NCBI GenBank assembly: GCA_018401705.1 | Contig: JAGYKL010000028.1 | Location: forward strand, 1 to 44,530 | DNA length: 44,530 nt | Direction of reading: 5' to 3' | Source: Bacteroidia bacterium | GTDB taxonomy: Bacteria > Bacteroidota > Bacteroidia > M30B66 | Shown: positions 18,716 to 23,688 of the stretch, one piece after another | Layout of the letters: every line of letters starts with the position of its first letter | Position numbering within the stretch: position 1 is the first letter of the stretch | The notes under the pieces: model-generated | The model's database searches: none | What the model was told of the DNA's origin: nothing | The model's input: the letters and a program-made list of their open reading frames with translations, nothing else | Translations under genes and position numbers: made by a program

Positions 18716-18752
18716 AAAGCCTGCTTCTTAGTTGAAGTGGGCTTTATTTTTT
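18716..18752 (+). terminator. Rho-independent terminator after the GIN-domain gene
   Basis: AAAGCC and GGCTTT, with an inner CTTC/GAAG extension, form a stem ending in TTTATTTTTT. It lies 27 bp after the GIN-domain stop and overlaps the stop codon of the convergent PAS gene, so it may also limit read-through into that gene. Confidence 0.65.
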
Positions 18753-19823
18753 AGTTAATGTATCGCTCATTGTCTTGATTACACCATCAAGCATTTTTGC
18801 TGATTCCTTTAAATAACCTGCAATTTTCTTAAGGTTTTGCTCATCGTCAAGGCTTATCAACTCAATCAATCCTAAAACATTTGCAACCGGAAGTCTAAGT
18901 TCGTGTGAAGTTAAAAAAGCAAATTTTTCTAATTGTTTTAAATATTGATCGTTCTCAAAGAAAATACGTTTTCGCACTGAAATGTCTTTCATTAAACCAA
19001 TGATATGAGTGGGAGCTCCAAACCCATCATCTCCATGAGCTTTTCCTTGATCTTCCACCCAGATATAATCGCCCGACTTGGTTTTTATTCTATACTCAAC
19101 CTTAAAAGTATCAGCATTGCAATGCAAAATATCTAGCAAATGTCGCCCACATAATGCAAGGTCATCGGGGTGAATTCTTGTACTCCATTTTTCCATTCCA
19201 CCTTCAGACATTTCAAATTCATCATAGCCGAGTAACTTATAACAAGATGCAGAATAATAAAGCTCATTCTCCTTAATATCCCAATCCCACATGGCATAAG
19301 CATTTCCTTCAGCTGCTATTTTCCACCGTTCTACCAATAGGTCTTGTTGCTTTTTCAAACTCTTATCAATACTTAATTCTCTGGCTCTTAAAACATACAC
19401 AACTGTGTAATCAGAAATTGAAACAGACTTTAAGGAAATAGACCATGTTTGATTATTAATTTGAATTTCGTTTTCAACATTAGATTTACTCTTCAAACTT
19501 TTGAAAAGGTTATTCCAAAAGGAAACAATGCTTAAATCTCTTGAATCATTCATGGAAATAATATCACCCACTTTCCATTTAAAGCCAAACGCATTAATAA
19601 AACCTTTAATGCTTTCGTTGTTTTGAGACAGCAATCTGAATTTTGAATCTACGATTGCTATGCAATCTGTCTCCAAACCTTTCAAAAGAGAGGAAACTTC
19701 ATGGATGCTTAACTCTTTTCTGAGTGGCTGTGTAATTGCTTTCGGATTGGTTGAGATTATTCTTCCTTTAAAAACATCATTATTAACAAGGCCTGATTGT
19801 GTAGTAGAATTTAAAACTTGCAT
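18744..19823 (-). CDS. PAS domain protein with histidine-kinase dimerisation domain but no ATPase
   Basis: This 359-residue soluble protein has a weak N-terminal PAS-like region (about 40-150) and a clear PAS_3 domain (about 170-285: MWDWDIKENELYYSASCYKLLGYDE, then IHPDDL, then GDYIWVEDQGKA, then GLMKDISVRKR). It ends in a HisKA-like helical hairpin with FLTSHELRLPVANVLGL at about 305-321. The protein stops about 40 residues after the phospho-acceptor His region, with no HATPase_c N, G1 or G2 boxes. It therefore cannot autophosphorylate alone; it could be a phosphotransfer or decoy partner for another kinase. The ligand is unknown. Confidence 0.8.
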   Translation of the reverse strand: MQVLNSTTQSGLVNNDVFKGRIISTNPKAITQPLRKELSIHEVSSLLKGLETDCIAIVDSKFRLLSQNNESIKGFINAFGFKWKVGDIISMNDSRDLSIVSFWNNLFKSLKSKSNVENEIQINNQTWSISLKSVSISDYTVVYVLRARELSIDKSLKKQQDLLVERWKIAAEGNAYAMWDWDIKENELYYSASCYKLLGYDEFEMSEGGMEKWSTRIHPDDLALCGRHLLDILHCNADTFKVEYRIKTKSGDYIWVEDQGKAHGDDGFGAPTHIIGLMKDISVRKRIFFENDQYLKQLEKFAFLTSHELRLPVANVLGLIELISLDDEQNLKKIAGYLKESAKMLDGVIKTMSDTLTKK

Positions 19824-19902: not shown

Positions 19903-19910
19903 TATTTTTG
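19903..19910 (+). promoter_or_regulatory. -7 element placed for a leaderless transcript
   Basis: TATTTTTG matches the Bacteroidota -7 consensus and ends 5 bases before the ATG at 19916. This is the same short spacing as for the double amidohydrolase gene. No good -33 TTTG is visible. Confidence 0.5.
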
Positions 19911-19915
19911 CACCC

Positions 19916-20290
19916 ATGATTCGCCTTCAGGCATTTATATTATCTATTTTAATTCTGCTGCCTACTCTATTAAAATTAGGAGTAGTAAGCAATTACATTG
20001 TTCAATACGAAAAGTACGCTACTGAGCTTTGTGAGAACATAGATAAGCCTGAACTTTCCTGTAATGGTAAATGTCAGATGATGGAAGAGCTTAATAACAC
20101 AGAAGCTGAAGCTAGCTCTCCTGTTCAAATTCCGTCTGTTTTAAAAGTTAAGGAACTTATAGCAGATGAGGCTTTCGCATGTGATTTTTTCATTTTTACC
20201 AAATACTTACCAATTCATAAAAGCTTTAATGGTTTTCCTGCCTTAGCAGTAGGAAACAAAAATGATGTTTTCCATCCACCCTGCGCTTAG
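19916..20290 (+). CDS. Small CNGKC-motif protein, probably metal related
   Basis: This 124-residue protein has an N-terminal hydrophobic helix (about 5-28) and a mature region with Cys39, Cys49 and Cys53 in LCENIDKPELSCNGKC. It ends with HPPC-A. I associate this Cys pattern with a small Bacteroidota family found near copper-handling genes. Here it begins a same-strand run that continues with MbnP-like and MbnH-like genes. A role in copper binding or sensing in the envelope is inferred from context only. The start is the ATG 5 bp after a -7 element. Confidence 0.6.
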   Translation: MIRLQAFILSILILLPTLLKLGVVSNYIVQYEKYATELCENIDKPELSCNGKCQMMEELNNTEAEASSPVQIPSVLKVKELIADEAFACDFFIFTKYLPIHKSFNGFPALAVGNKNDVFHPPCA

Positions 20291-20329
20291 GCTGATTTCG
20301 GGATTTTTTTAAACATTATTTTTTAACTG

Positions 20330-20349
20330 CATCCGTGTAATGACGGATG
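20330..20349 (+). repeat. Hairpin before the MbnP-like gene
   Basis: CATCCGT (20330-20336) and ACGGATG (20343-20349) form a perfect 7-bp stem with a 6-base loop between the first two genes of the putative copper locus. It is not followed by a strict T-run and could be a weak terminator or an operator. An upstream in-frame ATG (20347) falls inside its right arm, which is one reason to prefer the ATG at 20365. Confidence 0.4.
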
Positions 20350-20364
20350 TCTTATACCATTTTT

Positions 20365-21156
20365 ATGAATTTCAACTCAAAACTTTTCATTGCCTTAATA
20401 TTAGGCTTCTCTTCTATTCTTACATCATGTAAAAAAGATGAATTACCTGATCCAATTCTTCCAACTCAGCCTGCTAATGAAATTGGCATGTTCAAAATAG
20501 AATTTGAGCACTTATTTAATAGTGCCAATTTCACATTAAATACAGCATATACCACTAGCGAAGGCGAAGAAGTTACATTTACAAAGCTTAATTATTACAT
20601 CTCTAATATTCAACTAAGTAAAACAGACGGAACTACTTGGTCAGAGCCAGAAAGCTATCATTTAGTTAAGTTAAGCGACCCTATCTCAACATTAATTACA
20701 ATTAACGATGTTCCTAAAGGTCAATACAATGGAATGACTTTTATGATTGGTGTTGATTCTACTCGTAACGTTTCAGGAGCTCAAACTGGAGCTTTAGATC
20801 CAGCGAATGAAATGTTTTGGAGCTGGAATAATGGCTATATATTTGTTAAATCTGAAGGAACATCGCCACAGTCATCAAGTGGAAACTTTGAGTATCATCT
20901 GGGTGGTTTTAAAAATGCTAATGGGTCTAATGCGATTCAAAACCTAAATTACAATTTCGGTTCAAGCACTTTAGATATTCAACCTAATGCAGCTCCCCAA
21001 ATTCATATGATGGTTGCAGTTAATCACTTCTTTTCGCATAATGGAAGTACACTGAAAGTAGCTGATATGTCTACACTTCACATGCCGGGTGCTATGGCTG
21101 TTGGAATTGCTTCACGCTTTTCTACAGGCTTTATGTTTGATCATATTCACAATTAA
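20365..21156 (+). CDS. MbnP family copper-binding-type lipoprotein
   Basis: This protein is 263 residues from ATG 20365; an in-frame ATG at 20347 would add six residues in front of an otherwise normal lipoprotein signal. The lipobox ILTSC places the lipidated Cys at residue 22. The mature protein has MbnP family features: KIEFEHLFN, FTKLNYYISNIQL, the conserved FWSWNNGYIF segment, then NYEYHLGG-like and IHMMVAVNHFF strands, and HMPG near the end. In methanotrophs MbnP binds copper after MbnH converts one Trp to kynurenine. An MbnH-like di-haem gene follows 5 bp downstream, so the same modification is plausible here. Confidence 0.75.
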   Translation: MNFNSKLFIALILGFSSILTSCKKDELPDPILPTQPANEIGMFKIEFEHLFNSANFTLNTAYTTSEGEEVTFTKLNYYISNIQLSKTDGTTWSEPESYHLVKLSDPISTLITINDVPKGQYNGMTFMIGVDSTRNVSGAQTGALDPANEMFWSWNNGYIFVKSEGTSPQSSSGNFEYHLGGFKNANGSNAIQNLNYNFGSSTLDIQPNAAPQIHMMVAVNHFFSHNGSTLKVADMSTLHMPGAMAVGIASRFSTGFMFDHIHN

Positions 21157-21161
21157 TTAAC

Positions 21162-22190
21162 ATGTTGCTTCCCAAGACATCATTGTTATGTCTGGGGTTA
21201 ATTTTTGTTTTTAGCAGCTGTCAAAAAGATGAACCAATACCATCATTGCCTCAAGAGGTAATGGTGGTTCCGGTTCATTTCCCAAAGGCAGTCTATGATT
21301 TCGGAAATTTCCCACCAGATAATAAAAAAGTTGCTATTGGAAGAAGACTGTTTTATGATGAGCTATTAAGTCTTGACAGCACCATTAGCTGTGCATCCTG
21401 TCACAATCAATCTTCTGCATTTTCTGATGGAGGAAGACAGGTAAGCTCAGGTATTAACGGGGCTTTCGGATTTAGAAACGCTCCAGCCTTATTCAATCTG
21501 GCTTGGAAACCACTTTTTATGTGGGATGGAGGAATAGTTAATCTTGAACTTCAACCAATTGCACCTTTAACGGATGCTCACGAAATGTCTATTAGTCTAA
21601 ATCAAGCTTTGGGCAGGCTAAATTCAAGTACTCAATATCGCAGTTTGTTCAAAGAAGCGTTTCTGCAAGAAACAATTAGCACTCAAATGCTTCTAGTTTC
21701 ATTCGCACAATTTCTTTCAAGTATGGTATCATATCAATCCCCTTATGACGACTTTTATCAAGGAAAAGAGGCTGCGCTTAATGCTGCTCAGCAAAGAGGT
21801 TTGAAAATCTTTCGCAACAATTGCCATTCTTGTCATTCAGAACCTCTTTTATCTGACTTCTCATTTAGACGAAACGGGCTAACGATTACAAGCCTGGATT
21901 CTGGAAGACAAAGAATTACTTTGAATATAGATGACCGAGGCAAATTCATGGTTCCTTCACTCAGAAATATCAGTCGAACTGCCCCTTACATGCATGATGG
22001 GAGATTCGAAACGATAGATGAAGTTTTAGAAAATTATATGCATCCGCAAAACATAAATCAAATTGATGAAGCTATAGGAGACGGTATTTTACTATCTGTT
22101 CAAGAACAAAGTGATTTGAAAGAATTTTTAGAAAGTCTTGATGACAAACAATTTTTAAATGATCCAAAATTCAGTGATCCAATCAACTAA
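21162..22190 (+). CDS. MbnH-like di-haem cytochrome c peroxidase family protein
   Basis: This 342-residue lipoprotein (lipobox FVFSSC, Cys20) belongs to the bacterial di-haem cytochrome c peroxidase/MauG family. It has two haem c sites, CASCH at 77-81 and CHSCH at 221-225, the spacing typical of the family. RNAPALFNLAW and MWDGG are family motifs of the N-terminal domain and VPSLRNISRTAPYMHDG of the C-terminal one. Adjacency to an MbnP-like gene (5-bp gap) points to the MbnH subgroup, which oxidises a Trp of MbnP rather than acting mainly as a peroxidase. A general peroxide-reducing role cannot be excluded. Confidence 0.8.
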   Translation: MLLPKTSLLCLGLIFVFSSCQKDEPIPSLPQEVMVVPVHFPKAVYDFGNFPPDNKKVAIGRRLFYDELLSLDSTISCASCHNQSSAFSDGGRQVSSGINGAFGFRNAPALFNLAWKPLFMWDGGIVNLELQPIAPLTDAHEMSISLNQALGRLNSSTQYRSLFKEAFLQETISTQMLLVSFAQFLSSMVSYQSPYDDFYQGKEAALNAAQQRGLKIFRNNCHSCHSEPLLSDFSFRRNGLTITSLDSGRQRITLNIDDRGKFMVPSLRNISRTAPYMHDGRFETIDEVLENYMHPQNINQIDEAIGDGILLSVQEQSDLKEFLESLDDKQFLNDPKFSDPIN

Positions 22191-22194
22191 CATA

Positions 22195-23106
22195 ATGATG
22201 CGCAATTTATTCATTGCAGTATCCTTTTTCATATTTTCAAATGCCTGGGCTTGTGACATTTGTGGTTGCTCTTCTGGTGGCTTAAGTGGCGGTTTATTCC
22301 CTCAGTTTCAAAATAATTTGTTAGGGCTGCGATACTCTCCAACCGTATTTTCTCACCCTCAGAACCCAGGTAACTTTAATGGTTTAAGTAAATTAAGTAA
22401 AGATTCGTATCACGACTCTGAAGTATTCTTCAGGTGGTTTCCCAAAAAGAACCTTCAGTTGTGGATTAATGTTCCGTACAAAATAAGAATTAGGGAAGAG
22501 TCGCTAAGAACAACTCAAATTCAAGGTATTGGAGACATTCAAATTTCAGGACTTTATACATTTTTAAGAAGAGATTCATCGCACTACACATTTAGCCATT
22601 TAGTTTTAGGCGGAGGTGGAATTTCTTTACCAACAGGAAAATACCAGCAAAGAGATGAAACTTTGACCATGCTACCTGTAGGCTTTCAGGTTGGCACTGG
22701 TTCATGGTCGGCTTTCGTAAATGCCCTATACATGATTAGGCTTAAGCAATGGGGTTTCATTGCTCAGGGAGATTTCAGAACTTATTCTGAAAATGAGCGA
22801 TCATTTAAGAAAGGCAACTTATCTGGTTTCCAGGGAAGTTTTTTTAAGCAGTTTCAGATTGGCTCTAAAACAGGCCTTTTTATTCATGCTGGATTAAGAA
22901 ATGAATTACTAGAAATGGATGTTGATTTTGGGTCGAGAAAAACAGATTCTGGAAGTTTTTCAAATTGGGCAACATTTACGGCAGATATTTTCATGGGCTC
23001 GGCGCTCATGAGTTTTCAAGCTCAGTTCCCAGTTTATTCGCAATATAATGGCAATCAACCATTACCTGGAAACAGATTTAGCCTTTCACTGGCTTGGCTT
23101 TGGTGA
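22195..23106 (+). CDS. Outer-membrane barrel-like protein with CDICGC motif
   Basis: I use the ATG at 22195 (303 residues), 4 bp after the MbnH-like stop. The same frame is open further upstream, but only inside the previous gene. A signal peptide ends at NAWA, and the mature N-terminus carries CDICGCSSGG, a compact Cys cluster suited to metal binding. The rest alternates hydrophobic and polar strands (FFRWFPKKNLQLWINVPYK, then GIGDIQISGLYTF, then GNRFSLSLAWLW) and ends with aromatic residues, as in outer-membrane barrels. Its position makes it the last gene of the putative copper locus; it may be the outer-membrane component. The function is inferred. Confidence 0.65.
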   Translation: MMRNLFIAVSFFIFSNAWACDICGCSSGGLSGGLFPQFQNNLLGLRYSPTVFSHPQNPGNFNGLSKLSKDSYHDSEVFFRWFPKKNLQLWINVPYKIRIREESLRTTQIQGIGDIQISGLYTFLRRDSSHYTFSHLVLGGGGISLPTGKYQQRDETLTMLPVGFQVGTGSWSAFVNALYMIRLKQWGFIAQGDFRTYSENERSFKKGNLSGFQGSFFKQFQIGSKTGLFIHAGLRNELLEMDVDFGSRKTDSGSFSNWATFTADIFMGSALMSFQAQFPVYSQYNGNQPLPGNRFSLSLAWLW

Positions 23107-23688
23107 TTACCTCAAAAGTGCCAAAGTAGCTTTTACAACATCCTGCGAAGCAGCAGAATCAGCTTTTGAGCGAGATGCGACTCTAAGACCGGTCATTGTA
23201 TTATATAAAACACGAGCAAGAGTAATATCTGACAATTCACTTCTTATGTTTCCAGATTGTTTTGCTTGATGAATATAATGGCTGAACATGTTCTCAATTT
23301 CTGTTTTATTCGAATTAACAATTTCTGAAAATTCGGTATCAGCAAAACCAAGTTCCGTGGCTGTATTAACCATAAAACAACCCTTATTTTCAGAGTTATT
23401 GCCGGGCTTATTGTAAGACTCGTTGAGAAACGTTTCAAAGACAGCATAAATATCCTCCGTACCACGGAGAATTTCATGCATCTTTTCTAAGCCAATTCTT
23501 CTGTATTTATCTAATGCGCGCAGATAAAGTTGTCTTTTATCGCCAAAAGTATCATAGATACTCGAGCGACTTAAGCCAAGGTTTTGAACCAAATCATTCA
23601 CAGAACAACCTTCATATCCTTTTTCCCAAAAGACACTTATAGCTCTATCTTCAATATCATCTAAATCAAATTCTTTTGCTCTTGCCAT
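23107..23688 (-). CDS. TetR/AcrR family transcriptional regulator
   Basis: This 193-residue protein has the TetR N-terminal helix-turn-helix at about 10-55 (AISVFWEKGYEGCSVNDLVQNLGLSRSSIYDTFGDK) and an all-helical ligand domain with GCFMVNTATELG (about 97-108), common in regulators of short-chain dehydrogenase and efflux genes. It follows the SDR gene on the same strand by 88 bp. Two palindromic sites flank the -7 box upstream of the SDR gene, so it probably represses that promoter and, through it, itself. It ends exactly where the convergent barrel gene ends. The inducer is unknown. Confidence 0.85.
   Translation of the reverse strand: MARAKEFDLDDIEDRAISVFWEKGYEGCSVNDLVQNLGLSRSSIYDTFGDKRQLYLRALDKYRRIGLEKMHEILRGTEDIYAVFETFLNESYNKPGNNSENKGCFMVNTATELGFADTEFSEIVNSNKTEIENMFSHYIHQAKQSGNIRSELSDITLARVLYNTMTGLRVASRSKADSAASQDVVKATLALLR

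Follow-up and report, generated by a model that had tools for sequence, protein, structure and literature searches.

The locus described here raises the question of what a gene pair resembling MbnP and MbnH of Methylosinus trichosporium OB3b does in a Bacteroidia bacterium, in the company of two further genes whose products carry cysteine motifs. It lies in contig JAGYKL010000028.1, a stretch of 44,530 nt that was analysed as a whole (‘the window’, in which the coordinates of the locus are counted), and consists of four open reading frames on the + strand at 19916-23106. These encode, in order, a ‘CNGKC’ protein, an MbnP-family lipoprotein, an MbnH-family di-haem enzyme and a ‘CDICGC’ outer-membrane protein; an initial annotation of the same DNA had described this run, and all four frames are present on the strand and over the span that it gave. 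We favour, with a probability of roughly 60%, the explanation that the run is a copper-acquisition and delivery operon gated by its own nascent-chain copper sensor. The two central genes are a genuine MbnP/MbnH-type pair that probably serves general copper handling without methanobactin.

The MbnP/MbnH pair and its recurrence

The second gene of the run, mbnP (20365-21156, +), encodes a lipoprotein of 263 residues (lipobox LTSC) that matches Pfam family PF20243 at 1.8e-56, scoring 191.5 bits where the cut-off is 27. Its predicted structure (pLDDT 90.6) superimposes on Methylosinus MbnP (7l6g) with a Z score of 17.7 over 206 residues (rmsd 2.8, 14% identity), the next-best entry scoring 5.1. 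A xylanase returned as a relative in the Protein Data Bank by a single-sequence search proved to be a chance match, and a profile search was needed to reach 7l6g; the profile alignment places the WxW motif of the window protein on that of 7l6g.

This motif lies within MFWSWNNGY, residues 150-158, where the codons for M150-F-W152-S-W154 occupy 20812-20826 (+) and W152 is the candidate kynurenine precursor. Among 104 proteins, drawn from a sample of the phylum and from the organism’s own genome, 100 have Trp at position 152, 102 have His at position 178 and 87 have Met at position 150, with W154 likewise present and conserved; H178 (codon 20896-20898, +) is a candidate copper ligand. Manesis et al. 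are said to have reported in 2021 that the first Trp of MbnP is converted to kynurenine and that copper is held by one His, one Met and solvent, and we take these ligands of 7l6g to be matched here by M150 and H178. The conserved residues are those that such a site would need.

The third gene, mbnH (21162-22190, +), follows at a distance of 5 nt and encodes an enzyme of 342 residues in the MauG superfamily, with two CxxCH haem motifs (CASCH and CHSCH), a match to CCP_MauG (PF03150, 6.8e-47) and, as its closest solved structure, MbnH itself (6e1c, 1.1e-44). Tyr292 aligns with the Tyr of 6e1c and with Met258 of CcP (1iqc), at the position of the distal haem ligand; a Tyr occupies this position in all 145 readable homologues, whereas the lone CCP of the organism’s own genome has Met. 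That genome holds seven CCP_MauG matches above the cut-off, and five MbnP matches distributed over four loci. The initial annotation’s description of the pair, as an MbnP-like lipoprotein with FWSWNNGY next to a di-haem MbnH-like protein, is upheld. Both products also carry a lipobox followed by acidic residues (SCKKDE at 20425-20442 in MbnP and SCQKDE at 21216-21233 in MbnH), a pattern that resembles the Bacteroidota surface-export signal and is not general among homologues of either protein.

The survey of gene neighbourhoods that the initial annotation had proposed as a check found the module recurring across Bacteroidota. Related loci were collected by similarity to the window, all of them from this phylum, and 64 had enough flanking sequence; all four genes occur in 26 of these, and 13 more lack MbnH only. 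As resemblance to the window had defined that set, the arrangement was examined independently in 296 genomes of the phylum. Of the 103 MbnP matches found there, 43 have a CNGKC gene within 6 kb, 32 have a CDICGC gene within that distance and 29 have both, the latter two sets all co-oriented; the CNGKC-MbnP pairs share a strand in 51 of 51 cases and place CNGKC upstream in 50. Of the 104 cases sampled, 103 have an MbnH no more than 3.5 kb from MbnP, and CCP_MauG was present in each of the 77 MbnP-bearing genomes searched. An arrangement that recurs in this way across the phylum reflects more than chance. On a quickly built FastTree phylogeny with long branches, the module clusters on the MbnP tree (18 changes, against 34 when shuffled) and forms no single clean clade; the closest relatives at the family level have the locus without MbnH.

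The CNGKC gene as a proposed leader

The first gene (19916-20290, +) encodes 124 residues with a hydrophobic N-terminus that, judged by eye, resembles an export signal, and its product matches no Pfam or NCBIfam family. In an alignment of 28 members the only invariant features are C39, C49, G51, C53, P121 and P122, that is, a C-x9-CxGxC arrangement (the codons C49-N-G-K-C53, at 20060-20074, being a candidate Cu(I) site) and a Pro-Pro pair (20276-20281) that ends 6 nt ahead of the stop codon and is a candidate arrest site. The same anatomy holds across 111 non-identical homologues: CxGxC is found in every one, and Pro-Pro occurs inside the last 15 residues of 110, as compared to 12 of 219 other small open reading frames, usually at only 2-4 residues from the C-terminus. 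The distance between the two motifs is 67.9 +/- 2.6 residues, while the intervening sequence drifts. All 28 homologues taken from loci devoid of MbnP carry both.

Two copper-responsive leader proteins offer the closest analogies. In CruR of Bordetella pertussis, a DUF2946 protein, copper at a CXXC motif relieves arrest at a C-terminal RAPP sequence, leading to Rho termination, and CruR operons contain TonB, Sco, PCuAC and MbnPH-like genes (PMC9426467). In CutF of Rhodobacter capsulatus, copper instead prolongs the pause, opening a stem-loop that covers the ribosome-binding site of the next gene; the published list of CutF-like proteins holds many from Bacteroidota, and possibly includes the CNGKC family (PMC9973294). 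Both share with CNGKC a small exported protein at the head of an operon, a cysteine motif, a C-terminal Pro-Pro and copper genes that follow, whereas CNGKC differs in its C-x9-CxGxC (rather than CXXC or CxxxC) and in a spacing to Pro-Pro of about 68 rather than 45 residues. A further small Bacteroidota protein, HYC_CC_PP (NF047658), also combines an export signal, a cysteine motif and a C-terminal Pro-Pro, and its model matches none of the 28 CNGKC members.

The start of transcription of the run may be marked by a match to the Bacteroidota-type -7 promoter consensus, TATTTTTG (19903-19910, +), which we take to be a form of that box and which ends 5 nt upstream of the CNGKC ATG. The element TAnnTTTG occurs within 60 nt of the start of the CNGKC homologue in 31 of 57 relatives, as against 6% of shuffled sequences, and its position in the window fits a leaderless or very short-leader transcript, in keeping with the leaderless-type promoter of the initial annotation.

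The spacing of the genes further sets the first apart from the rest. With starts assigned at signal peptides (probably 20365 for mbnP, in agreement with relatives, and probably 22195 for the barrel gene, neither being the first ATG), successive genes are separated by 74, 5 and 4 nt, which leaves the CNGKC gene set apart from three closely spaced ones; in relatives, the gap after CNGKC has a median length of 113 nt, as compared to 5 nt between mbnP and mbnH. The RNA of this gap folds better than its shuffles (mean z -1.9, n 83). No Rfam family was matched, and promoter-like and terminator-like consensus sites occur no more often than in shuffled sequence. When 40 nt around the leader stop were paired with 38 nt around the next start, the mean z was -1.24 +/- 0.23 across 75 non-redundant loci, as compared to -0.20 to +0.15 for five decoys (segments displaced along one or other gene, or moved into the gap, all scores being shuffle-normalised); paired tests against four of the decoys gave p values of 1e-4 to 2e-6, and GC-matched swapped partners paired less strongly than the native ones (p 0.0004). 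The 5' arm of this pairing centres on the leader stop codon. A version of the decoy test that used raw energies was misleading, in that one coding decoy fell below the native value, probably through base composition, and was set aside for the normalised scores. In the window itself the whole local segment folds with z -1.85. An inverted repeat of 13 nt (20258-20323, +; 92% complementary) connects the last codons of the leader (20258-20270) with the gap (20311-20323) and is suggestive only, and a perfect 7-bp hairpin, CATCCGT / ACGGATG, stands at 20330-20349 (+), 15 nt before the mbnP start.

Because it heads the operon, carries a cysteine motif, ends in Pro-Pro beside the stop and is followed by a long structured gap, the CNGKC gene is, by analogy, better explained as a copper-sensing leader of the CutF/CruR kind than as another copper carrier. 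A carrier is nevertheless the first alternative to be considered: CNGKC might be a periplasmic or membrane-anchored protein that passes Cu(I) on to MbnP or to the barrel, its Pro-Pro tail being structural and the RNA pairing serving only to tune expression. Three invariant cysteines able to bind Cu(I), neighbouring genes for copper proteins and the non-significant pairing of the window’s own copy would all suit such a protein, which nonetheless has no need for a fixed spacing between cysteine motif and Pro-Pro amid drifting sequence, nor for Pro-Pro at 2-4 residues from its end, for a place upstream of MbnP in nearly every pair, or for the stop-start signal. We consider a carrier rather unlikely and distinctly less probable than a leader.

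Operon function and competing explanations

The last gene of the run (22195-23106, +) encodes 303 residues that are predicted to form a 12-stranded outer-membrane barrel (pLDDT 85.8), with the cysteine motif ahead of the first strand; the nearest structure is the COG4313 channel 4rl8 (Z 25.1). C20, D21, C23 and G24 are at least 90% conserved in its family. The window protein matches no Pfam or NCBIfam family, and two members of the family reach PF13557 (best 2.4e-6); a 12-stranded barrel is common to 4rl8, FapF and PF13557, from which the CDICGC protein differs in its N-terminal motif. On the strength of its model, we read the protein as an outer-membrane channel of the COG4313 kind that carries its cysteine motif N-terminally. 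Where the initial annotation had grouped the first and last products as two extra cysteine-motif proteins, it was right that both belong to the locus; they are not alike, the last being a predicted channel and the first leader-like.

The company kept by these genes elsewhere points to copper. CNGKC stands ahead of a barrel, Sco and PCuAC genes in four MbnP-free genomes and directly ahead of TonB receptors in others, and COX1 is found directly upstream in two loci, while neither an efflux RND system nor a copper ATPase recurs among the neighbours of the module. Sco, PCuAC, TonB and COX1 neighbours support the general copper handling that the initial annotation had suggested, which is the probable role; its remark that a TonB receptor is missing holds for the four-gene run.

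The sequence of events that we propose would begin with transcription at or beside the leader ATG, as the -7 box suggests. The CNGKC leader would be exported during translation and its C-x9-CxGxC would bind Cu(I), which, if the analogy with CutF and CruR extends from the observed anatomy to mechanism, would govern pausing of the ribosome at the Pro-Pro beside the stop codon. A ribosome paused there would cover the 5' arm of the stop-start pairing, and the pause might open or keep the pairing between leader end and next start (a statistical signal of the family), so that copper would decide downstream synthesis. Repression by copper is the favoured direction, since in other loci the partner genes are concerned with uptake and with the assembly of oxidases. 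MbnH, an observed member of its family, would convert Trp152 of MbnP to kynurenine, whereupon Met150 and His178 of MbnP would coordinate a single Cu(I); the CDICGC barrel, to judge from its fold, may pass copper or a small copper complex, and the metal would be handed on for the assembly of cuproenzymes such as cytochrome oxidase.

The same parts could be read as an operon for copper tolerance through surface trapping or export, induced by copper in the manner of CutF-CutO. Leaders of the CutF type work in this direction (PMC9973294), cysteine-rich motifs suit trapping, and one homologue of the barrel (at locus L123) ends in a heavy-metal-binding domain (HMBD, PF19335). Against this stand the assembly and uptake genes that neighbour the module elsewhere, the lack of recurring efflux RND or copper ATPase genes and the fact that the characterised relatives CorA and MopE are copper-repressed uptake proteins (PMC3912023). 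We hold tolerance to be unlikely, to about the same degree as a carrier.

Several observations weigh against an acquisition operon gated by a nascent chain. The window’s own stop-start pairing is no better than that of shuffles (p 0.69 with the standard segments, p 0.19 with wider ones), and only some 30% of relatives reach significance when taken singly; since the window copy is non-significant, gating at this locus would be carried over from the level of the family. DUF2946 (PF11162) is matched by neither the window CNGKC protein nor any of the 28 members at E<=0.1, and with no match to it or to a named family, homology between CNGKC and CruR lacks sequence support. The window MbnP scores 53 bits against an equivalog cut-off of 140 for TIGR04052 (a model matched by 58 of 59 relatives at E<=0.001) and is accordingly filed as an MbnP-family protein rather than as a TIGR04052 equivalog; the enzyme matches TIGR04039 (‘MbnH family di-heme enzyme’) at 4e-66 and with 223 bits, short of a cut-off of 363. 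As both cut-offs are missed, the pair belongs to a divergent Bacteroidota branch and the enzyme is described as MbnH-like. Finally, several lineages that lack an adjacent MbnH keep WxW, and a local MbnH is therefore not essential.

The pairing might also be ordinary translational coupling of adjacent genes, unrelated to copper. Genes are commonly coupled by RNA pairing across a start codon, and the statistic itself involves no copper; coupling nonetheless leaves the cysteine motif, the Pro-Pro by the stop and the copper-only neighbourhoods unexplained, and since it is compatible with a leader the two are not mutually exclusive. As an explanation on its own it appears improbable. Least likely of all is that the pair makes another oxidative modification or binds another metal, with copper incidental, a view for which 14% identity to the solved MbnP, the unreached equivalog cut-offs and a few family members without the Trp may be cited, and which conflicts with the conservation of Trp152, Met150 and His178, with the shared MbnP fold, with Tyr292 of MbnH and with the copper genes nearby.

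Natural variants and relation to known systems

The loci that lack MbnH provide natural variants of the system. Among those whose genomes were checked, all but one have another CCP_MauG gene elsewhere; the exception (L080, 5228-7237) has an MbnP with intact WxW beside CNGKC and a Sco-like gene (recognised by its motif; the Sco query set that picked it up contained this very gene), and no CCP_MauG was found in this draft genome, the completeness of which is unknown. In two further loci (L120, 4223-5008, and L123, 5989-6774) the WxW of MbnP is replaced by MxM and the conserved His by Gln, with no local MbnH; on their sequences, these represent a natural Met-type site. The idea that loss of MbnH accompanies loss of the Trp holds only in part, in that L120 and L123, with no local MbnH, have lost both Trp and His, and most MbnH-less loci keep WxW, usually with MbnH elsewhere in the genome.

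Other arrangements were seen in and around related loci. A small lipoprotein without an NCBIfam match recurs in or beside the module (L072, 7821-8189, and 18 similar frames), and at L034 (13-354, -) and L029 (2596-2930) a small lipoprotein that carries a CopZ-like metal-binding domain (GNCxMCKKTI) comes after an MbnP-MbnH pair. In the organism’s own genome, a HYC_CC_PP protein (NF047658) lies about 166 nt before MbnP at L023 (5122-8765, -; G000:C16), giving this genome a further leader-like gene ahead of an MbnP; this MbnP has an extension resembling a C-terminal sorting tail, and two MbnH genes are present. At L021 (7424-8253, -; G000:C10), a sigma-70-like pair of frames, adjacent and possibly frameshifted, with a cysteine-rich end (CALVNKNGVCHQCSEL), lies just upstream of another MbnP-MbnH-YHYH run of that genome and recalls the copper-sensing sigma factors of the CorE type.

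With MbnP and MbnH of Methylosinus trichosporium OB3b (7l6g and 6e1c) the window pair shares the MbnP fold, an MxWxWxxG motif with a near-invariant first Trp, the conserved His and an adjoining di-haem enzyme of the MauG type whose axial position is held by Tyr. It differs in being built on a Bacteroidota lipoprotein of low identity (14% over 206 residues), in its added leader gene and outer-membrane channel, in having relatives without a local MbnH, and in its surroundings: no MbnA, MbnB or MbnC gene was seen in the run or in the sequence read immediately on either side of it, methanobactin profiles not having been applied to the remainder of the window or of the genome. The run is flanked by a PAS/HisKA gene (18744-19823) and a TetR gene (23107-23688), both on the - strand and excluded from the parts of the locus. 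CorA/CorB of Methylomicrobium album and MopE/SACCP of Methylococcus capsulatus likewise combine a surface copper protein bearing a Trp-derived kynurenine with a co-transcribed di-haem CCP-like partner (PMC3912023), and follow a working principle like that of the window pair; no CNGKC or barrel gene is described for them. MbnP has been described as not markedly similar in sequence to MopE or CorA (PMC3621798).

Each element of the locus is of a known kind, and what is new is their combination, together with the pairing signal. The broader proposal, that a phylum-wide family of copper-sensing arrest leaders (C-x9-CxGxC, with FHPP near the stop), bearing no detectable sequence relationship to DUF2946, gates entire copper-acquisition operons, including those with kynurenine-type MbnP/MbnH, through an RNA helix between stop and start, seems to us evenly balanced between true and false.

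The supply of copper to the oxidases of Bacteroidota is poorly described. If the proposed explanation is true, a single conserved operon would unite a kynurenine-type copper protein, the di-haem enzyme that makes its site and a nascent-protein copper sensor, and the CNGKC and CDICGC families, unnamed so far, would gain a testable role. The natural variants, both the MbnH-less loci and the MbnP proteins in which WxW has become MxM, offer a test of whether kynurenine is needed for copper binding.

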